This document shows, in pieces, positions 192 to 9,187 of a stretch of 64,000 nt of DNA. Source of the stretch: Corynebacterium terpenotabidum Y-11 (GTDB lineage Bacteria; Actinomycetota; Actinomycetes; Mycobacteriales; Mycobacteriaceae); NCBI RefSeq assembly GCF_000418365.1, contig NC_021663.1, positions 1,364,001 to 1,428,000 of the forward strand. Reading direction: 5' to 3'. Both the position numbers and the translations under genes were made by a program. Under the pieces are notes generated by a model. It worked only from the letters and a program-made list of their open reading frames with translations. It was not told the DNA's origin and searched no databases. Position 1 is the stretch's first letter. Every line of letters starts with the position of its first letter.

Positions 192-221
192 TTCGCTCCG
201 GGTTTTCCCATCCATTAGTCT
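192..221 (+). promoter_or_regulatory. Possible gltB promoter
   Basis: TTCGCT (192-197), an 18-bp spacer and TAGTCT (216-221) form a weak sigmaA-like promoter about 100 bases before the gltB start. The 217-bp divergent region (105-321) between rpe and gltB shows no AmtR or GlnR operator that I could recognise. Confidence 0.3.
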
Positions 222-321
222 TGCCTCACCAGAGCAAAGGAATTTCCGGCGTGGGTGCAGTGATCCGCCACAAGCGGTTGCACCACGACCGGGTACCCCG
301 AGGCGAAAGATCAACCCGTTC

Positions 322-3300
322 ATGAGTTCGACATTCGGCCTGTACGACCCGTCCCGCGAGCACAGCGCCTGCGGCGTCGGTTTCCTCACCCGCAAGGACG
401 GCGTCCCCACCCACGACGTCCTCGACCGGGGCCACCGAGCCCTGTGCGCTATCCCCCACCGCGGCGGCATGTCCTCCGAGGGCGTCGGCGACGGCGCCGG
501 CGTGAACATCGACCTCTCCGTCGAGTTCTTTTCCGCCGTCACCGGCCTCGACCTGGAAGAGCGACGCTTCGGCGTCGGAAATTTCTTCCTCCCCGAGGAC
601 GCCGCCCAGGAAGAGGTCGCCCGCGACATCGTCACCGCTGCCCTCACCGCGGAAGGCCTTGATGTCGTCACCATCCGTGAGGTCCCGGTCAACGCGGCCG
701 CACTGCGTCCCGCAGCCCTCGCCTACCAGTTGCCGATTCTCCAGTGGGTCTTCACCGTCCCCGGATCGATGAGCGCCGCCGCTGCCGACCGGGCGGCGAA
801 CTCCGCCCTGCTGCGCATCGAGGAGGCCGCCTACTCGCGCTCCGAGCTCAAGGGCCTGTACCCCCTGTCGCTGTCCACCCGCACCCAGGTGCTCAAGGGT
901 CGTCTCAACGCCGACGAGGTCATCCCCTGGTTCGCCGACCTCACCGATGAGCGTCACAGCGTGCGGACCATGTACTTCCACACCCGGTTCTCCACCAACA
1001 CCGAACCGCACCCGTCGATGGCCCAGCCCTTCCGCCTCATGGCCCACAACGGTGAGCTGAACACCGACCGGAAGAACCGGATCAGCGACGAAGCCGCCGC
1101 CGCGTCCTACCAGCGCCACATCATCCGCCCGCCAGGGCAGTCCGACTCCTCCCGCCTCGACCAAACCCTCCAGTCGCGCGTCTTCGACGATCGGCTCGAC
1201 ATCGTCGAGGCCGTCGTCTCCCTCATGCCCCCGGCCTGGGAGAATGACACCTCGCTGCCGGAGAACGTCCGCGACATGCTGGAGTACTTCTCCCTCTACG
1301 AGGAGAAGAACGACGGTCCCGCCGCCCTCATTTTCAATGACGGTGACGTCGTCGGCGCCCGCCTCGACCGCCTCGGCCTGCGTCCGCTGCGCAGTGTCGA
1401 GACCGCCGACTACCTCATGGTCTCCTCCGAGGCCGGTCAGCTCGACGCCGAACCGGAGAACGTCCTTCACCGTGGACGTATCGAGGCCGGCGGCATGCTC
1501 AGCCTCGACCACCGCACCGGCGAGATCCGCCGCACCCGCGAAACCCTCGAGGACCTCGCCTCCCGCCGCGACTACGCCACCCTGCTGGCCGAGGCCCGCA
1601 CCGACATCCGCGACATCCCTGTCTCCGGCCTCCAGCGCGGCACCACCACCCTCGGCTACCAGGGTGACCTCAGTCTCTCCGGCCGGTTCGTCGCCTATTC
1701 CATGAACCAGGAGAGCTTCCGGTTCATGATGGACCCGATGCTCGCCACCGGCGCCGAGCGGATCTCCGCGATGGGCTACGGCAACGCCATTAACGCCCTG
1801 TCCGACACCGAAGGTGGTGTGGCCAAGTACTTCTCCCAGCGTTTCGCTCAGGTCACCAACCCGCCGCTCGACTCGATCCGCGAAGCCGACGGCATGACCT
1901 TCCGCGTCGCCCTCGGTGCCAAGCCCGACGGCCGGGACTCCGACGACCCGCGCGAACCCACCCACCAGATCGTCGTGGAGACCCCCATCCTCTCCCACCT
2001 CGACATGCTCCGCCTGCGCGAACAGGACCTGGTGCCCTTGCGTCGCTTCGACCTGCTCTACGAGCCCGTCGCCGACGATGCGGACGCCAACGCCGACTCC
2101 CTCGTCGGCGCCCTCGACCGGCTCTGCGACGCTGTGGCCCGCTTCGCCGGGGAACAGGGCGGCATTGCGGTGCTCTCCGACCGCTCCGTCGACTCCAAGC
2201 ACGCTCCGGTGCCGCTGCTGCTCGCCGTCTCCGCGGTGAACCAGCGGCTCATCGCCGACGGTCTGCGGATGCGCGTCTCCGTCATTGCCGACTCCGGCCA
2301 GTTGCCCAGCTCCCACCACATCGCCTCCGCCCTCGGGTTCGGTGCCGCCGCGGTCTACAGCCTCTCCGCCCGCCTGCGCGCCGAGGAGAAGTACCCCGCC
2401 CCCACCGGCCCCGCCGGTGACTACACCGAGACCGACAAGGCCTTCGACAAGTTCCGCAAGGCCGCCCTTAAGCAGCTCGGCAAGACCATGGGCCGGGTGG
2501 GTCTGTGCACCGTGGAGAGCTACATCGGCGGCGAATTCTTCGAGCCGAACTACCTCGACACCCGCGACCCCGCGCTGGCTCGCTGCTTCCCGCACATGGA
2601 GGCCCCGGTCCGGGGCGTAGGCTTCCGCCGTATCGCCGAAGCCAACACCGAATGGCACCAGCGCGCCGCCTCCATTGCCGAGGATAAGGACATCCCGCTG
2701 CTCGGCCTGTTCAAGGAACGCTCTGAGGGTGCGGGCCACTCTTTCGGCACCACCGCCGTGCGTGGCTTCACCGGCCTCACCGACGAACCGCTGGCGTTGC
2801 CCGCCCCGGCTATGCCGACGACGCAGGACGCCGCCCCCACTGAGGACGCTGACACCACTGGCGCCGGTGACGCTCTGCGCCTGCTCACCCTTGGCCAGCT
2901 GTCCGATGCCTTCGGTATCTCCGACGATGCCTACACCAACGCCGGTTTCGGCGCCCTGACCCCGGAACAGATTGACGCGTTCAAGGTCACCCCCGGTTAC
3001 CGCGACTTCGTGTCCACGACCAAGGCAGAGCGCGCCCGCCGTCCTTCCGCCCTGCGCGACATCCTCGCCCTGCCTGCCGACGTCACCGGCCTGCGGCTGT
3101 CCGAGGACTTCGCCCGCCAGCTCGGCCGCTTCTCCCTCAACGGTAACGACTCGATCTGCGTCCGCGGTCTCGACATCGAACCTGCCGGCACCGACACCTG
3201 GTCCCTCGTCCTCGTCGATGAGGATGACCGACTCACCGGCCACGCCGAACTCGCTGTCTGGCTGCGCGACGCCTTCGGCGCGGCGATCCTGGCCGTACGG

Positions 3301-5934
3301 GTCACGGCGGCGTCCCTCACCGTCACCGCCCACGGACGCGCCGCCCGCTTCCTCGGCATGCTGCGCGTCGCACCGGAGAGCCTGGCGGTCGCCGACGTCC
3401 AGCCCGCCCACGAGATCACCCGGACCCTTGCCTCCGGTGCGATGAGCCACGGCGCCCTGGTCGCCACCGCCCACGAGGCGGTCGCCCACGGCACCAACAT
3501 GGCCGGCGGCATGTCCAACTGTGGTGAGGGCGGGGAGCACTTCTCCCGCGCCGGCACCATCCGCGGCTCGAAGATCAAACAGTTCGCCTCCGGACGTTTC
3601 GGTATCTGGGCCGGTTACCTCGCCGACCCGCAGCTCGAGGAACTCGAGATCAAGATCGGTCAGGGCGCCAAGCCCGGCGAAGGCGGCCAGCTGCCCGCCC
3701 CCAAGGTCACCGTGGATATCGCCGCGGCCCGTGGCGGTACCCCGGGCATCGAGCTCGTCTCCCCGCCGCCCCACCACGACACCTACTCCATCGAGGACCT
3801 GGCCCAGCTCATCCACGACTGCAAGGCAGCACGGGTGCGGGTCATCGTCAAGCTCGTCTCCTCCGAGGGCATCGGCACCATCGCCGTGGGCGTGGCCAAG
3901 GCCGGCGCCGACGTCATCAACGTCGCCGGTAACACCGGTGGTACCGGCGCCGCCGCCGTGACCAGCCTGAAGTACGCCGGACGCTCCGCCGAGATCGGTG
4001 TGGCCGAGGTCCACCAGGCCCTGCTCGTCAATGGTCTGCGCGACAAGGTTGTGCTGCGCTGCTCCGGTGCCCACCAGACCGGGCGCGACGTCGTCGTCTC
4101 CGCCCTCCTCGGTGGCGACTCCTTCGAGTTCGGCACTACCGCCCTGATGATGCTGCGGTGCGTCATGGCGAAGAACTGCAACATCAAGTGCCCGGCCGGT
4201 CTGACCACCAACGCCGAAGCGTTCGACGGCGATCCCCGCGCCCTGGCCCAGTACCTGCTGAACATCGCCCACGACGTCCGCGGCATCCTCTCCCGCCTCG
4301 GCCTGCCCTCTCTGCGCGCCGCCCGGGGCCGCTCGGACCTGCTGCAGCTGCTGGAGCATCCGTCGTCCGTCGGCCACCTCGATCTGCGCAAGATGCTCGC
4401 CCTGGTGCCCGAGAAGAAGGTCACCGACCCGGTGTACCTGGAGAAGAACTTCACCACCGACGACCACCTGCTCACCGAGGTGCGTGAGGCACTCGTCACC
4501 CGCGGTGCGACCTCAGTGGAGATCGGTGCCGACAACGGCGGTATCCCGCTGCACAACTGGGACAAGTCCGTCGGCGGTCAGCTCTCCGTCGACATCGAAC
4601 GGCTGCTCAACCACGGCACCGACGGCGCCGGCCTGCATCTCAGCGACGCGGAGGTCGATGCACTGCCCGCCACCATCCGGGACAACCGTGGCCGCGCCTA
4701 CCTCGACGACGGCACCGTCACGGTGCACACCTCCGGCTCCGCCGGACAGTCCTACGGTGTGTTCTGCAACGACGGCCTGATCCTGGAGCACACCGGCACC
4801 GCCAACGACGGCGTCGGCAAGAGTCAGGGCGGTGGCACCGTCATCGTCCGCTCCCCCGGCGGCGGCGCGGACGTGCCCGGCGGCAACGTCCTCATCGGCA
4901 ACTTCGCCCTCTTCGGTGCCACCGGCGGACGCCTGTTCGTCGAAGGTGAGGCAGGCGACCGCTTCGCGGTCCGTAACTCCGGTGCCACCGCCGTCGTCGA
5001 AGGCATCGGCGAGTTCGGTGCCGAGTACATGACCAACGGCACCGTGCTGAATCTCGGCACCGTCGGTAAGGGCCTCGGCAACGGCATGTCCGGCGGTTTC
5101 CTCTACCAGTACGACCCCGAGGGCATCGTCCCGGACATCGCCAGCCACGACTCCCTGGTCACCTTCCCGCTGCCCGATGCTGAGCCCTTCCACGAGGTCA
5201 CCGTCCGCACCCTGCTGGAATGGCACATCGAAGCCACCGGGTCCGCCCTGGCTACCCGCCTGCTGGAGGACTGGGACACCACCCGTCGCCACATCGTCTG
5301 CGGGATGCCCCGGGCCCTGCTGCTCTACCAGGACGCCGACGCGATCCTGTCCGCTGCGTCCCGTAAGGACCTGCTCGACGAACTGGCGACCTCCATCGCC
5401 ACCGACCGGCTCCACGCCTTCAAGCTGGACTACCGGGACCAGCGCATCGTCGCCGACGGGCACGTCCCCGGTCGCTCCACCGGTGGGACACCGGAGGGTC
5501 CGGCCGCGATGTTCGACCTCATCGCGTCCTACACGATCCTCAACGTCGCCCGCGAGTTCGCCCGCGACCGTCTCACCGGGACAGTCGACGCTGCCGACCC
5601 GCGGATCGATGATGCGACCCGCAAGCTGATCCTCACCGAGGACTTCTTCGTCATGCAGAAGGTCGTCCGCTACCTGCGGGATTCGCTGGATTCCCTCGAT
5701 GACGCCCAGCTGGCGGTGCTGATCGCCACCAAGCGGCTCAGCGACTACAAAGCGTCCCTGGAGAAGCGCAACGTGCGCGGCATCGACATCCCCGCCACCT
5801 ACGGCTGGATCATGCACCAGGACCTGAAGAACTCCGCCCGGATGGACGACGCCCACATCGATGAAGCCATCGCCCAGGCCTCCCTCGACGACCTCGTCGC
5901 CGGATGGCGTGACATGAAGGGAGTGAACGCATGA
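322..5934 (+). CDS. gltB: Glutamate synthase large subunit, long divergent form
   Basis: Glutamine-hydrolysing glutamate synthase; makes two glutamates from glutamine plus 2-oxoglutarate. At 1870 residues it is clearly longer than the usual roughly 1500. Order: class II glutaminase from Cys17 (HSACGVGF), with HRGG and GDGAG motifs; a long central region; the FMN synthase domain with KPGEGGQLPAPKV near 1117 and SPPPHHDTYSIEDLAQL; cluster cysteines C1280, C1286 and C1290; the GXGXG beta-helix (about 1395-1610); the usual family end near 1665; then about 205 residues I do not recognise. The cysteines are spaced C-x5-C-x3-C, where the family norm is C-x5-C-x4-C. Start at ATG 322 places the nucleophile at residue 17, as in relatives; the frame stays open upstream. 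Its stop overlaps the next start (ATGA), so it is coupled to a diflavin reductase rather than gltD. Identity as GltB-type is secure; partner and electron donor are inferred. Confidence 0.93.
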   Translation: MSSTFGLYDPSREHSACGVGFLTRKDGVPTHDVLDRGHRALCAIPHRGGMSSEGVGDGAGVNIDLSVEFFSAVTGLDLEERRFGVGNFFLPEDAAQEEVARDIVTAALTAEGLDVVTIREVPVNAAALRPAALAYQLPILQWVFTVPGSMSAAAADRAANSALLRIEEAAYSRSELKGLYPLSLSTRTQVLKGRLNADEVIPWFADLTDERHSVRTMYFHTRFSTNTEPHPSMAQPFRLMAHNGELNTDRKNRISDEAAAASYQRHIIRPPGQSDSSRLDQTLQSRVFDDRLDIVEAVVSLMPPAWENDTSLPENVRDMLEYFSLYEEKNDGPAALIFNDGDVVGARLDRLGLRPLRSVETADYLMVSSEAGQLDAEPENVLHRGRIEAGGMLSLDHRTGEIRRTRETLEDLASRRDYATLLAEARTDIRDIPVSGLQRGTTTLGYQGDLSLSGRFVAYSMNQESFRFMMDPMLATGAERISAMGYGNAINALSDTEGGVAKYFSQRFAQVTNPPLDSIREADGMTFRVALGAKPDGRDSDDPREPTHQIVVETPILSHLDMLRLREQDLVPLRRFDLLYEPVADDADANADSLVGALDRLCDAVARFAGEQGGIAVLSDRSVDSKHAPVPLLLAVSAVNQRLIADGLRMRVSVIADSGQLPSSHHIASALGFGAAAVYSLSARLRAEEKYPAPTGPAGDYTETDKAFDKFRKAALKQLGKTMGRVGLCTVESYIGGEFFEPNYLDTRDPALARCFPHMEAPVRGVGFRRIAEANTEWHQRAASIAEDKDIPLLGLFKERSEGAGHSFGTTAVRGFTGLTDEPLALPAPAMPTTQDAAPTEDADTTGAGDALRLLTLGQLSDAFGISDDAYTNAGFGALTPEQIDAFKVTPGYRDFVSTTKAERARRPSALRDILALPADVTGLRLSEDFARQLGRFSLNGNDSICVRGLDIEPAGTDTWSLVLVDEDDRLTGHAELAVWLRDAFGAAILAVRVTAASLTVTAHGRAARFLGMLRVAPESLAVADVQPAHEITRTLASGAMSHGALVATAHEAVAHGTNMAGGMSNCGEGGEHFSRAGTIRGSKIKQFASGRFGIWAGYLADPQLEELEIKIGQGAKPGEGGQLPAPKVTVDIAAARGGTPGIELVSPPPHHDTYSIEDLAQLIHDCKAARVRVIVKLVSSEGIGTIAVGVAKAGADVINVAGNTGGTGAAAVTSLKYAGRSAEIGVAEVHQALLVNGLRDKVVLRCSGAHQTGRDVVVSALLGGDSFEFGTTALMMLRCVMAKNCNIKCPAGLTTNAEAFDGDPRALAQYLLNIAHDVRGILSRLGLPSLRAARGRSDLLQLLEHPSSVGHLDLRKMLALVPEKKVTDPVYLEKNFTTDDHLLTEVREALVTRGATSVEIGADNGGIPLHNWDKSVGGQLSVDIERLLNHGTDGAGLHLSDAEVDALPATIRDNRGRAYLDDGTVTVHTSGSAGQSYGVFCNDGLILEHTGTANDGVGKSQGGGTVIVRSPGGGADVPGGNVLIGNFALFGATGGRLFVEGEAGDRFAVRNSGATAVVEGIGEFGAEYMTNGTVLNLGTVGKGLGNGMSGGFLYQYDPEGIVPDIASHDSLVTFPLPDAEPFHEVTVRTLLEWHIEATGSALATRLLEDWDTTRRHIVCGMPRALLLYQDADAILSAASRKDLLDELATSIATDRLHAFKLDYRDQRIVADGHVPGRSTGGTPEGPAAMFDLIASYTILNVAREFARDRLTGTVDAADPRIDDATRKLILTEDFFVMQKVVRYLRDSLDSLDDAQLAVLIATKRLSDYKASLEKRNVRGIDIPATYGWIMHQDLKNSARMDDAHIDEAIAQASLDDLVAGWRDMKGVNA

Positions 5935-7685
5935 CCCTCCACCTGCCCACCGGGGCCCCGTTCTCCGTGGAACAACAGACCTGGCTCGACGGATTCTTCG
6001 CCGGACTTGACCTCGGCCGTGAGCGCTACCAGGGCCCTGCGGCCATGCTCACCGTCGACGTCCTCTTCGGATCGCAGACCGGCAACGCCTCCGACCTCGC
6101 CGACCAGCTTGCCGGGGGCCTGCGCGCCGCCGGATTCGGGGCGAATGTCACCGAGCTCGACAGTGCCGGCGTCGGCGTGCTGACCTCCGGATCCAGCCAC
6201 GTCCTCATCGTCACCTCCACCTACGGTGAGGGCGAGATGCCCGACAACGCCGGTATGTTCTGGGAGGATCTGACGTCCACCGAGATGCCTCGGCTGGAGG
6301 ACCTGCACTTCGCCGTGCTCGCCCTGGGTGACTCCGGCTACGACGGCTTCTGCCAGGCAGGCAGGGACATCGACATCCGGCTCGAACAGCTCGGTGCGAG
6401 GCGTCTCACCCCGCGGGTCGACTGTGACGTCGACTTCGAAGATGACGCCGCGGAGTGGATCGACGCCGCCGTGGCCGCTGTCGTCGCCGCTGCCCCGGCA
6501 GGCGCTGCGGTGCCCGGTGGTGCCGGTACCGGTGGCAGTGCCGGTGGCGCTGCGAAGCCGGAGAAGTCGACGTGGAACCGGAAGAACCCCTTCTTCTCCC
6601 CGCTGGCCGCGACCCGCCGCCTGTCCGCCGAGGGCAGTGCCAAGGAGATCCACCACTACGAGTTCGACCTGGGAGATTCCGGTATCACCTACGCCGCCGG
6701 CGATGCCCTGGCCGTCCTCCCGGTCAACGATCCCGAACTGGTGACCGCGATCCTCGCCCGGCTGGGACTCGAAGGCACCGAGGCGGTGGCCGACTCCACC
6801 CTCTTCGACGTCATCCTCACCGGCCGGGAGATCCGGACCCCGTCCAAGGACCTTATGGCCGCCATCGCGGACGCCGCCCCGACCGGGGTGCTGGCCGATG
6901 TGATCCGCCGCGATGACCGGGACGCCCTGGACTCCTATCTGTGGGGACGTGACATCCTCGACCTGCTCGAGGAGAACCCGTCCGTGCGGTTCACCACCGA
7001 CCAGCTGCTCGATCTGCTGCGTCCGCTGCAGGCCCGCCAGTACTCCATCTCCTCGTCCCCGCTGGCCAGCCCGGACCGGATCCACCTCACGGTGGCGTCC
7101 GTCCGGCACAGCAAGGGTGCCGGGGCACGCATGCTCGGTGGTGTGTGCTCGACCTACCTCTCCGACCGGATCGCCGACGGGGACCTCACCGGCATCTGGC
7201 TCCAGCCGAACAACGCATTCAGCGTGCCGGAGGATCCCTCGAAGCCGGTCATCATGGTCGGCCCCGGTACCGGCATCGCCCCGTTCCGCGGCTTCCTGCA
7301 CGAGCGGGCGGCGGCCGGGGCGACCGGTGGGAACTGGCTCTTCTTCGGTGACCAGCACGAGGCCACCGACTTCATCTACGCCGACGAGCTCACCGAGCTC
7401 TCTGAGCAGGGTGTGCTGACGAAGCTCTCGCTGGCGTTCTCCCGCGATCAGGCGGAGAAGGTGTACGTGCAGACCCGGATGCGGGAGGAGGCCGAGGAGC
7501 TCTTCCGCTGGCTGGAGGACGGTGCCTACTTCTACGTCTGTGGTGACGCGTCACGCATGGCCAAGGACGTCGAGACCGCGCTGCTGCAGGTCATCGCCCA
7601 GCAGTCCGGCGGCTCGGAGAATGCGGCGCTGGAGTACCTGGCGACGCTGAAGAAGGAGAAGCGGTACGTCCGCGACGTCTACTGA
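5931..7685 (+). CDS. CysJ-type NADPH diflavin reductase coupled to gltB
   Basis: A 584-residue soluble flavoprotein with the sulfite-reductase alpha / cytochrome P450 reductase layout. Flavodoxin-like FMN domain at about 40-185 (SQTGNA 48-53, STYGEGE 96-102, LGDSGY 132-137); Ala/Gly-rich hinge 181-210; FAD domain with RQYSIS 369-374 and GGVCSTYL 403-410; NADPH domain with GPGTGIAPFRGF 444-455, FFGDQH 471-476 and CGDA 537-540; and the typical C-terminus RYVRDVY. It should pass electrons from NADPH through FAD to FMN and then to a partner. No sulfite reductase haemoprotein (CysI) is nearby; instead the start codon overlaps the gltB stop by 4 nt, so GltB is the obvious partner. A terminator follows. 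The domain call is firm; service to glutamate synthase is inferred from coupling. It could alternatively serve a sulfite reductase encoded elsewhere. Confidence 0.9.
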   Translation: MTLHLPTGAPFSVEQQTWLDGFFAGLDLGRERYQGPAAMLTVDVLFGSQTGNASDLADQLAGGLRAAGFGANVTELDSAGVGVLTSGSSHVLIVTSTYGEGEMPDNAGMFWEDLTSTEMPRLEDLHFAVLALGDSGYDGFCQAGRDIDIRLEQLGARRLTPRVDCDVDFEDDAAEWIDAAVAAVVAAAPAGAAVPGGAGTGGSAGGAAKPEKSTWNRKNPFFSPLAATRRLSAEGSAKEIHHYEFDLGDSGITYAAGDALAVLPVNDPELVTAILARLGLEGTEAVADSTLFDVILTGREIRTPSKDLMAAIADAAPTGVLADVIRRDDRDALDSYLWGRDILDLLEENPSVRFTTDQLLDLLRPLQARQYSISSSPLASPDRIHLTVASVRHSKGAGARMLGGVCSTYLSDRIADGDLTGIWLQPNNAFSVPEDPSKPVIMVGPGTGIAPFRGFLHERAAAGATGGNWLFFGDQHEATDFIYADELTELSEQGVLTKLSLAFSRDQAEKVYVQTRMREEAEELFRWLEDGAYFYVCGDASRMAKDVETALLQVIAQQSGGSENAALEYLATLKKEKRYVRDVY

Positions 7686-7724
7686 TATGCGGCGCGGTCG
7701 TCCGCGTCCCGCATCGCGTCCAAG

Positions 7725-7740
7725 AATCTGACACGACTGG
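7725..7740 (+). repeat. 16-bp repeat copy 1 (AATCTGACACGACTGG)
   Basis: Exact inverted partner of 9244-9259. A one-mismatch inverted copy is at 7764-7779. Together they bracket the DUF559-like gene. Confidence 0.8.
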
Positions 7741-7783
7741 TTGGTCCGTCTCGCTGAGAACACCCGGTCGTGTCAGATTTTTT
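7725..7783 (+). terminator. Rho-independent terminator after the gltB operon
   Basis: Arms 7725-7740 and 7764-7779 form a 16-bp stem with one G:U pair and a 23-nt loop, followed by a T run (7778-7783). It starts 40 nt after the diflavin reductase stop. The arms are copies of a repeat that recurs at 9244-9259. Confidence 0.7.
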
Positions 7784-7848
7784 GCGCTGTAGGTGCCCTA
7801 CCCCGCGGCGAGGACAGCGACCGGTGCCGAACCAGGTGCGTCGGCGAG

Positions 7849-7963: not shown

Positions 7964-8045
7964 GAGGGGATGAGGACCGTGGGGATAAGCACTGTGGGGA
8001 TGAGCACCGTGGGGATGAGCACCGTGGGGATGAGCACTGTGGGGG
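7964..8045 (+). repeat. 15-bp tandem repeat array
   Basis: Four near-perfect units of GTGGGGATGAGCACC (7979-8038, differing only at A/G and C/T positions), preceded by a degenerate unit (7964-7978) and followed by a partial one (8039-8045). Each unit carries a GTGGGGAT core resembling an interrupted inverted DnaA box. The period is a multiple of three, so the downstream reading frame stays open through it. Confidence 0.85.
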
Positions 8046-8134
8046 AAGGTCGACAGCGCCGGACGCGGGACCGTGGACAGAACGCCAGGTCAGACAACCC
8101 GCTAGGTCGTGGACCGGACTACACGCGGAGGATC

Positions 8135-9187
8135 GTGCCGACGGCGTTGCCGGTGAAGCGCACGGAACTCGCGGCCCGGCCGGAGATCACGGACTGGGCA
8201 CTGCGTCACCGCTATATCACCGCCGCCCGAGGCGTGGTGGTCCCGCGGCCCGATCACTACGATCCCGCGGCATTCGACGGTTTCGGGCTCGACGCGGTGA
8301 CCAGGGCCTGGGCGAACCACCTCAAACACCCCGGGGCGGTCCTCGGCGGATGGAGTGCCGTGGCCGTCTACGGCCTCAGACCCGACTGGGCGGACCATGC
8401 CCCGGTCGTCCTGCTCTCCGGCACACATTCCCGGGGTTCGTTGACCTCCGCCACCGCGGCCCGATACCCGCTGCGCCCGGTGTTCCTGCCGCTCCCGGAC
8501 GATCTCGAGACATGCACCCCCTGCCCCCGGTTCCCCACGATGAAGGTGGTCACTCCAGGACTCGCCGCGGCACAGTGCCTGTCGACCATCCTCGACGGAC
8601 GCCACACCTGGTGGGTCCACGATGTCCCCGGTCTCACCCGACGGGAAGTTCGTGCAGTGCAGTTCATCGACGCCTTCGCCCAGTGCACCTGGGTGAGCCG
8701 CAGGGAGATTCTCGGGGCGGCGAAAGGGCTGGTCAACCGGAAACGGCTGAGGAAACTCCTGGCCCTGGCCGACGACGGAGCACAGTCACCGATGGAGACG
8801 GTGACTCGGCTGCTGGTCCGGGATCTCCTGCCCGCACCGTACCGGTGGGAGTCCCAGATCCGGGTGGATCTCGATCCTGGTGCCGCCACCGGATGGACCC
8901 GGCAGACTCTTCCGGACCTGGGTGTCCATGGGCTGAAGATCGCGATCTACTACGACGGGGCCTACCACGATGACGATCACCGGACCGACGTGGACTTCGA
9001 CCAGTTCCACACGCTGCGCGACCTGGGATGGGAGGTACTGAGGTTCAACAGGAAGACCATCCGTGACCCACGCAAGGTCCGCGAACTGGTGAGCAACGCC
9101 ATTGCCCGGGCCATCAGCCAGACCATCAATCAGGCCAACAGTCAGACCATCAATCAAGCCATCAGCCAGGCGCAGTCGGAAGGCTGA
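8135..9187 (+). CDS. DUF559 / Vsr-like PD-(D/E)XK nuclease-domain protein
   Basis: A 350-residue protein. The N-terminal half resembles actinobacterial proteins annotated with an AbiEi-like antitoxin domain. The C-terminal third looks like the DUF559/Vsr endonuclease fold: SPMETVTRLLVRDLLP with E221, LPDLG with D261, AIYYDG with D274, H278, then DFDQFHTLRDLGWEVLRFN. The usual arrangement E...D...YDGxxH...D...LGWxVLR is intact, so nuclease activity is possible. The C-terminus (about 325-347) is a degenerate SQTINQA repeat coded by imperfect tandem DNA. Start is uncertain: GTG 8135 has GGAGG only 3 nt upstream; GTG 8153 is an alternative. It stands alone, convergent with rsmB, between inverted copies of a 16-bp repeat. 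Role unknown; defence or mobile-element association is only a guess. Confidence 0.7.
   Translation: MPTALPVKRTELAARPEITDWALRHRYITAARGVVVPRPDHYDPAAFDGFGLDAVTRAWANHLKHPGAVLGGWSAVAVYGLRPDWADHAPVVLLSGTHSRGSLTSATAARYPLRPVFLPLPDDLETCTPCPRFPTMKVVTPGLAAAQCLSTILDGRHTWWVHDVPGLTRREVRAVQFIDAFAQCTWVSRREILGAAKGLVNRKRLRKLLALADDGAQSPMETVTRLLVRDLLPAPYRWESQIRVDLDPGAATGWTRQTLPDLGVHGLKIAIYYDGAYHDDDHRTDVDFDQFHTLRDLGWEVLRFNRKTIRDPRKVRELVSNAIARAISQTINQANSQTINQAISQAQSEG

Follow-up and report, generated by a model that had tools for sequence, protein, structure and literature searches.

Glutamate synthase (GOGAT) is one of the central routes by which nitrogen enters metabolism. In bacteria, the enzyme known from textbooks, GltB-GltD, depends on the iron-sulfur relay of GltD, which carries flavin adenine dinucleotide (FAD) and two 4Fe-4S clusters. 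The ferredoxin-dependent enzyme (Fd-GOGAT) is a single large subunit with flavin mononucleotide (FMN) and an Fe-S cluster, without GltD. Only these NADPH and ferredoxin types are described in the accessible part of a flavoenzyme review (PMC8097209), in which the word 'diflavin' is absent. Here a stretch of 64,000 nucleotides (nt) from Corynebacterium terpenotabidum Y-11 (NC_021663.1, positions 1,364,001 to 1,428,000; the window) was analysed, in which a long GltB-type protein (long GltB) and a CysJ-type diflavin reductase are encoded side by side (the pair). Judged from sequence comparison, the pair is likely a two-component NADPH-dependent glutamate synthase in which the diflavin reductase replaces GltD, and which would act as an iron-sparing isoenzyme where gltBD co-occurs.

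The pair was compared with four described systems. With the GltB-GltD type, long GltB has in common the domain order and the glutaminase, FMN and GXGXG domains, with NADPH as the expected donor and, in Pantoea-type genomes, the same chromosomal place; the partner is GltD there, whereas an FAD/FMN reductase is encoded beside gltB here. Long GltB resembles Fd-GOGAT as a single large FMN/Fe-S subunit without GltD, but differs by the adjoining gene for a dedicated diflavin reductase, and it is closer to the NADPH-type large subunit (788.9 bits) than to Fd-GOGAT (676.3 bits). The flavodoxin, FAD and NADPH domains are common to CysJ of CysJI and the window's reductase, which is paired with GltB and not with CysI. 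Finally, the bifunctional nitrate reductase/sulfite reductase flavoprotein has a related diflavin module (~40-50% identity) serving a nitrogen-assimilation enzyme (molybdopterin domains were seen in two cases), but this module is fused to the molybdenum enzyme, unlike the pair. The five nitrate-reductase modules sampled formed their own clade, and the three sampled CysJs grouped with them and with no single pair reductase. Among the matches listed from the open PMC literature, no title or abstract start described a GltB-diflavin pair, and subscription literature could hold such a description; this widespread GOGAT form, seemingly with a flavin-only partner, is apparently undescribed.

Conservation of the gene pair

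A complete GltB-type protein overlapping a CysJ-type reductase by 4 nt, with a terminator behind, had been described in an earlier note made from the letters of the window; the coordinates proved exact, and all expected Pfam domains were found. Long gltB runs from ATG at 322 to TGA at 5932-5934, and the reductase gene starts with ATG at 5931 and has its stop ending at 7685, the overlap being ATGA. The terminator was also confirmed, as the hairpin with its T run folded (7715-7795) at -38 kcal/mol with z -5.35 against 200 shuffles.

For the distribution of the pair, one genome per species was scanned with the reductase as the query, and the best 80 of at least 582 confirmed stretches (48-61% identity) were taken; looser relatives may be unpaired. 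Long GltB (~55-71% identical) was directly upstream of the reductase on the same strand in 80/80 loci, being cut by the contig end in two (L012 and L017). According to the record titles, the hosts were Actinomycetota, Proteobacteria (which we take to be of the alpha, beta and gamma classes) and one planctomycete. When 396 genomes were sampled evenly over the phylum, three had a long GltB at E<=1e-200 (the window's included), each with an adjoining reductase. The distance matrices of the two partners were correlated with r = 0.945 over 78 pairs (maximum 0.10 in 500 permutations), to which shared ancestry contributes. The set of 78 was obtained from 81 pairs (the window and the 80 loci) by excluding the partial L012 and L017 and the L032, L041 and L076 broken in the alignment, and by adding two Corynebacterium GltBs; from these pairs, 36 were taken for the GltB tree and 38 for the reductase tree.

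Within the genus, the reductase (~66% identity or more) was detected in 6 of the 242 genomes, once in two frames and once cut by a contig end, and all six also have long GltB. The pair is on plasmids of Tsukamurella, Shinella and Ketogulonicigenium, and the planctomycete pair is nested among Rhodobacterales in both the GltB and the reductase trees; sporadic presence, plasmid location and this nesting point to joint horizontal transfer.

Two loci with irregular reductases were recorded. In another Corynebacterium (L180; G170 C2:1212000-1228000), long GltB is open and 87% identical, and the reductase lies in two frames ~120 nt apart, being a pseudogene, a frameshift or an assembly error. In L188 (G579 C1:1525000-1544900), a second, partial reductase (residues 204-584, 48%, C1:1530234-1531391) lies within ~1.1 kb of the pair.

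Replacement of gltBD by the pair in several lineages

GltD was searched in 50 of the 80 pair-bearing genomes with the host's own GltD as the query. It was found at 44-69% identity in 30, and the remaining 20 were without a GltD of 44% or more. No GltD match better than E 1e-12 was obtained in 18 of these 20 (fragments of other NAD(P)-binding flavoproteins), and a remotely GltD-like protein (31%) was found in the other two, both of them metagenome bins (G039 and G049). By a search for GXGXG, long GltB was the only large GltB in 19 of the 20 GltD-less genomes, G039 having a canonical-type GltB fragment besides; small extra GXGXG proteins of 233-382 amino acids (aa) were present in four. The 20 include six metagenome bins (five among the 19), the Streptomyces sp. 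GQFP chromosome, Leucobacter weissii, two Methylobacillus, Pseudovibrio stylochi and nine Pantoea/Erwinia-type genomes, Pantoea sp. SOD02 among them.

The gene order at the Pantoea/Erwinia-type loci was arcB - long gltB - reductase - sspB - sspA - rpsI - rplM - zapE in 13/13, and that of Escherichia coli K-12 is arcB - yhcC - gltB - gltD - gltF - other genes - sspB - sspA - rpsI - rplM - zapE. At five Porticoccaceae/Cellvibrionales loci, an aroB-like gene is upstream and a hemE-like gene directly downstream (named by reading the proteins), surroundings that presumably match the gltBD place in Pseudomonas. These sequence data are most simply read as the pair taking over the role of GltBD. Together with the constant pairing, they support the separate GOGAT architecture proposed in the earlier note.

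The same genomes bear on the alternative that long GltB is fed by ferredoxin or by a resident GltD and that the reductase passes its electrons elsewhere, for instance to sulfite reductase. GltD does occur in 30 of the 50 genomes and in the host, the NCBI name of the reductase is sulfite reductase subunit alpha, and the reductases are near CysJ in the tree; 20 of the 50 genomes are nevertheless without a clear GltD, and the pairing in all 80 loci, with the gene overlap in the window, favours a joint enzyme. Furthermore, another diflavin protein, as long as CysJ (609-630 aa), was found in 9/9 GltD-less Pantoea, Erwinia and Enterobacter-named genomes and adjoins CysI in Pantoea SOD02, and the host's sulfite reductase has a ferredoxin-NADP-reductase-like neighbour (see below). 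This alternative is therefore considered unlikely. In a FAD_binding_1 scan of 19 GltD-less genomes, the pair reductase was the only match in five, namely three Porticoccaceae/Cellvibrionales bins, Pseudovibrio and a Rhodospirillaceae bin. Taken as a whole, the pair is most likely a working NADPH-glutamate synthase with another electron donor, and it is the GOGAT part of the explanation that we hold with the greatest confidence.

As to the labels of the enteric loci, Enterobacter ludwigii EnVs2 (L035) and E. cancerogenus M004 (L080) have the pair at the Pantoea-type site, and the EnVs2 reductase is near-identical to that of Pantoea sp. SOD02, so that the species labels may be wrong.

Domains and motifs of long GltB

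The best solved relatives of long GltB are GOGAT large subunits (7mfm, 6s6s and 1ea0). Its score with the NCBIfam large-subunit equivalog, 1001.1 bits, is slightly under the cut-off of 1047, and the domains that mark the GltB superfamily are all present, namely GATase_2 with its N-terminal Cys, Glu_syn_central, Glu_synthase and GXGXG. It exceeds the host's own canonical GltB by 337 aa and that of E. coli by 384 aa, with an extra domain and a C-terminal extension. The positions of these and the other features are given in Table 1.

Table 1. Positions of the pair, its parts and the flanking signals in the window
Feature	Position	Strand	Basis or remark
Candidate DtxR/IdeR-like iron box, TTAGTCTTGCCTCACCAGA	215..233	+	13/19 to a working consensus; 107 nt before start codon
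Long GltB-type glutamate synthase large subunit, 1870 aa	322..5934	+	Pfam GATase_2, Glu_syn_central, Glu_synthase, GXGXG
Codon of predicted N-terminal nucleophile Cys17 (CGVGF), after a 16-residue propeptide	370..372	+	Alignment; processing predicted by analogy with canonical GltB
Extra domain between central and FMN domains, GltB residues ~879-1019, missing in canonical GltB	2956..3378	+	Alignment
Fe-S cysteines C1280-x5-C1286-x3-C1290	4159..4191	+	Family-wide motif
C-terminal extension past GXGXG domain, GltB residues ~1665-1870	5314..5931	+	Alignment, structure comparison; mostly helical in AlphaFold model
CysJ-type diflavin reductase, 584 aa (FMN, FAD and NADPH domains)	5931..7685	+	Pfam Flavodoxin_1, FAD_binding_1, NAD_binding_1
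Intrinsic terminator hairpin with T run	~7722..7782	+	Sequence and folding versus shuffles

The Cys17 nucleophile motif, with a pattern written for this study, was matched in 77 of the 78 long GltBs, and the glutaminase, FMN and 2-oxoglutarate-site motifs were kept in 74-78 of them. These patterns were built around the long form and match 1-8 of eight canonical GltBs, and the counts are to be read as conservation within the family and not as identity with the canonical protein; in alignment, the host's canonical GltB shows the same motif blocks as long GltB. The Fe-S cysteines named in the earlier note are present, with their spacing corrected to C-x5-C-x3-C, which is one residue shorter than the C-x5-C-x4-C loop of the GltB-GltD type. 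C-x5-C-x3-CP was found in 78/78 long GltBs and C-x5-C-x4-CP in 7/8 canonical ones, the E. coli GltB having neither.

In the tree, the 36 long GltBs stand on one side of a branch and the eight canonical ones on the other, with E. coli on a long branch. This distance (3.1 for the branch drawn to either side of the root) and the altered Fe-S loop could mean that long GltB has changed chemistry, with another amine or keto acid, and does not form glutamate; N-methylglutamate synthase is an example of such a change. The conserved FMN and 2-oxoglutarate-site motifs, the nearly constant glutaminase nucleophile motif and the gltBD place, which argues for the same job, make such a change very improbable, and glutamate formation is preferred.

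The extra domain and the C-terminal extension matched no Pfam family above its cut-off. Modelled alone with AlphaFold, the extra domain gave a confident core (mean pLDDT 81.5), for which no fold match at E<=0.001 was found in the PDB. A model of GltB residues 800-1870 had a mean pLDDT of 67.7 and GOGAT structures as top matches with a poor global fit, and was not used for docking. The two regions would be natural candidates for the docking of the reductase.

Identity and relatives of the diflavin reductase

E. coli SiRFP (6efv) was the best PDB relative of the reductase with 394 bits, and among named reductases, those of Corynebacterium variabile are nearest (85% identity). The score with the NCBIfam cysJ equivalog (573.7 bits) is under the cut-off of 668.15, and the protein is thus not assigned to CysJ by that family; with PRK06214 ('sulfite reductase subunit alpha') it scored 459.5 bits, above the cut-off of 432. 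In public records, the two proteins of the pair are named 'glutamate synthase-related protein' and 'sulfite reductase subunit alpha' or 'diflavin oxidoreductase', respectively. The FAD and FMN motifs were found in 83/83 and 81/83 reductases, respectively, with loosened patterns, the stricter first patterns having matched 14/83 and 25/83.

Diflavin modules also occur in other settings. In the phylum sample, many were in open frames of 1272-1542 aa, and two fusions from other searches were molybdopterin oxidoreductases, both probably nitrate reductases. Stand-alone reductases (L185-L187, 48-51%) occur without long GltB in three genomes of the host's family, the neighbours scanned in two of these including D-Ala-D-Ala carboxypeptidase, SRP54 and MFS genes. 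On Paracoccus and Paenarthrobacter plasmids (L195 and L196), related diflavin reductases (46% and 42% to the window's, respectively) adjoin genes for aldehyde dehydrogenase and glutamine-synthetase-like proteins; no GltB is annotated in the stretch covered, which points to a further partner. In Streptomyces sp. GQFP, a 1392-aa molybdopterin-oxidoreductase/diflavin fusion (L177:1809-5984) lies ~10 kb from the GltB-diflavin pair, and two nitrogen enzymes of this strain may use related diflavin modules.

Canonical gltBD and sulfite reductase of the host

The host genome is one contig of 2,751,233 bases, with the pair at 1364-1372 kb. Its sole Fer4_20 match, at 178,851, is within a canonical gltB-gltD at ~173.8-180.3 kb, which encodes a GltB of 1533 aa (from the likely start) and a GltD of 517 aa. 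The suggestion that this is an organism without GltD was thereby ruled out. The earlier note had taken a canonical gltD elsewhere as a point against the pair, and such a gene does exist, but next to a canonical gltB of its own. This host thus has the pair as a second system, and its GltD may also serve long GltB.

The window's reductase was the only FAD_binding_1 protein found in the host genome. The one protein with NIR_SIR (sulfite/nitrite reductase) is encoded at 417 kb, far from the pair, where it adjoins a ferredoxin-NADP-reductase-like gene (Pyr_redox_2 by Pfam, the finer name by eye), with a CysH-like gene (named by eye) nearby. No cysI is linked to the pair, and the composition of the cluster at 417 kb means that the window's reductase is not an obvious CysJ. 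That it is the host's missing CysJ was therefore rejected, and the search for cysI, named in the earlier note as another way in which the idea could fail, turned out, as far as sequence can show, in its favour, since no CysJ stands beside the sulfite reductase. A third host protein with a Glu_synthase domain was noticed at 2250189-2251145 (L088), in an open frame of 553 aa.

Candidate iron boxes upstream of the pair

DtxR/IdeR-like boxes were scored against a working 19-position consensus, with single-base shuffles as the control. A score of at least 13/19 was reached in 13 of the 30 actinobacterial upstream regions (1.7% of shuffles) and of at least 14 in 8 (0.2% of shuffles), with the sites 34-169 nt before the start used, and 13 was reached in 2 of the 53 non-actinobacterial regions. 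For the background, 24 whole loci were scored: 8 of their 24 upstream regions reached 13, and the remaining 414,477 positions held 7 such sites. A wider test took in three further regions, with scores of 14, 14 and 13; the pooled tally, 16/33 at 13 or more and 10/33 at 14 or more, was not relied on, its binomial figure taking no account of kinship. The window's box is weak by itself, and DtxR/IdeR-like boxes are enriched as a class in Actinomycetota. Boxes of NtrC (two forms), GlnR, AmtR, Fur, RirA and Irr showed no clear enrichment over shuffles in 79 upstream regions. Palindromes found de novo in Proteobacteria exceeded shuffles mainly through motifs common to close relatives and were not built on.

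Third gene and siderophore neighbourhood

With a profile from 14 neighbours, a HemS-like gene was detected in 23 of the 80 loci, of which 14 were the seeds and 9 were new; each time it is the next gene after the reductase, in the same orientation, and the flanks held no other match. Its hosts include Streptomyces, Herbiconiux, Rhodococcus and Mycobacterium as well as Rhodobacterales and Hyphomicrobium. Pfam HemS (PF05171) was above its cut-off in 9 of the 13 proteins scanned (L005, L006, L012, L014, L024, L030, L041, L057 and L075), under it in L047, L053 and L082, and absent in the plasmid protein L193. The DNA 3' of the window's pair encodes a different protein, not of the HemS-like kind. 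On a Ketogulonicigenium vulgare plasmid, genes for an AraC regulator, a TonB siderophore receptor and two further proteins, one siderophore-binding and one siderophore-interacting, come after the pair and the HemS-like gene. Siderophore-interacting proteins were found by similarity in the flanks of 5/80 loci, two of them confirmed by Pfam, and several Rhodobacterales have such proteins, TonB receptors or an ExbB-family gene near the pair.

The HemS-like third gene, the siderophore genes beside the pair in some Rhodobacterales and the upstream iron boxes would also suit a unit for iron or haem acquisition, in which the substrate of the reductase is haem or ferric siderophore, reduced for the HemS-like protein, and glutamate from GltB goes into a siderophore. 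In 57 of the 80 loci, however, no HemS-like gene was found, the Pantoea/Erwinia-type pair stands at the gltBD place between arcB and sspB, and the pair holds the sole large GltB in 19 of the 20 genomes without clear GltD, and we regard such a unit as improbable.

Iron-sparing interpretation

A link to iron was not part of the idea in the earlier note. The pair would be iron-sparing because the two 4Fe-4S clusters of GltD are removed, and eight iron atoms would therefore be saved per protomer. Because of the enrichment of DtxR/IdeR-like boxes, the HemS-like gene and the siderophore-uptake genes on the Ketogulonicigenium plasmid, iron is probably the reason for two enzymes in this Corynebacterium; the iron-sparing part of the explanation is considered rather likely, judged on these genomic signs.

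A case for comparison is found in Staphylococcus aureus. In the accessible text of PMC9410917, the mRNA of the glutamate synthase gltB2 is a predicted target of the iron-repressed small RNA IsrR, for which no significant effect on gltB2 mRNA stability is reported; as a predicted target, it suggests that GOGAT is treated as an iron cost elsewhere too. The likeness, drawn from that part of the source, is one of role, and the direction is opposite, as an Fe-S enzyme would be turned down there and a lower-iron isoenzyme turned up here.

The following observations count against the explanation as a whole, the GOGAT part included. The host genome itself carries canonical gltBD. The pair reductases were not resolved as one clade, with the CysJ and nitrate-reductase modules, grouped together, attaching among the deepest lineages (a single clade of pair reductases was not rejected, p-AU 0.43). 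The reductase also occurs without long GltB, as three stand-alone relatives (48-51%), one broken (G398, with an internal stop) and many fused ones in the phylum sample. As to iron, the window's own candidate box is modest (13/19, to a working consensus), 17 of the 30 actinobacterial regions are under 13, including 6/6 of Curtobacterium (11-12), and of five canonical gltB upstream regions, scoring 12, 10, 13, 9 and 9, one reaches 13. The DtxR box was picked for follow-up out of a scan of eight motif types, no iron motif was prominent across all 79 regions or in Proteobacteria, and the neighbours identified at Pantoea-type loci are not iron genes.

Proposed mechanism and significance

In the proposed mechanism, the N-terminal glutaminase of long GltB would hydrolyse glutamine and ammonia would be passed to the FMN site. 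NADPH would reduce FAD and then FMN within the reductase, whose FMN hydroquinone would give single electrons to the Fe-S cluster of GltB and from there to the GltB FMN, by which 2-iminoglutarate (the imine of 2-oxoglutarate and ammonia) would be reduced to glutamate. For this, the two proteins would form a complex, with the reductase presumably docked via the extra domain and the C-terminal extension. Where both enzymes occur, the pair would be derepressed when iron is scarce (through DtxR/IdeR in Actinomycetota).

In its widest form, the proposal is a third bacterial GOGAT class, which we favour with some reserve. It would consist of long GltB and its own diflavin reductase, with direct FMN-to-Fe-S contact without the low-potential 4Fe-4S relay, and would have displaced GltBD in several lineages and served elsewhere as an iron-starvation isoenzyme, with a possible HemS-like haem protein in the operon.

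If the proposal is true, a widely transferred alternative would show that GltB can be driven by a CysJ-type reductase, glutamate synthesis by the GOGAT route in gltD-less bacteria would be explained, many annotations as 'sulfite reductase subunit alpha' would be corrected, and glutamate synthesis would belong to the iron-sparing response. An iron-sparing GOGAT would also become an idea open to direct testing.

Other observations downstream of the pair

The hairpin behind the reductase gene was not listed by a simple consensus terminator scan, presumably because the loops were limited to 3-8 nt in it, and the single other site of that scan, at 7324, is inside the reductase gene. On the 3' side of the terminator, a 405-aa open reading frame (7966-9187) starts with a 15-bp tandem repeat (5.3 copies, 7966-8044) and has a weak DUF559 match at its C-terminus (21.4 bits, with a cut-off of 20.6).

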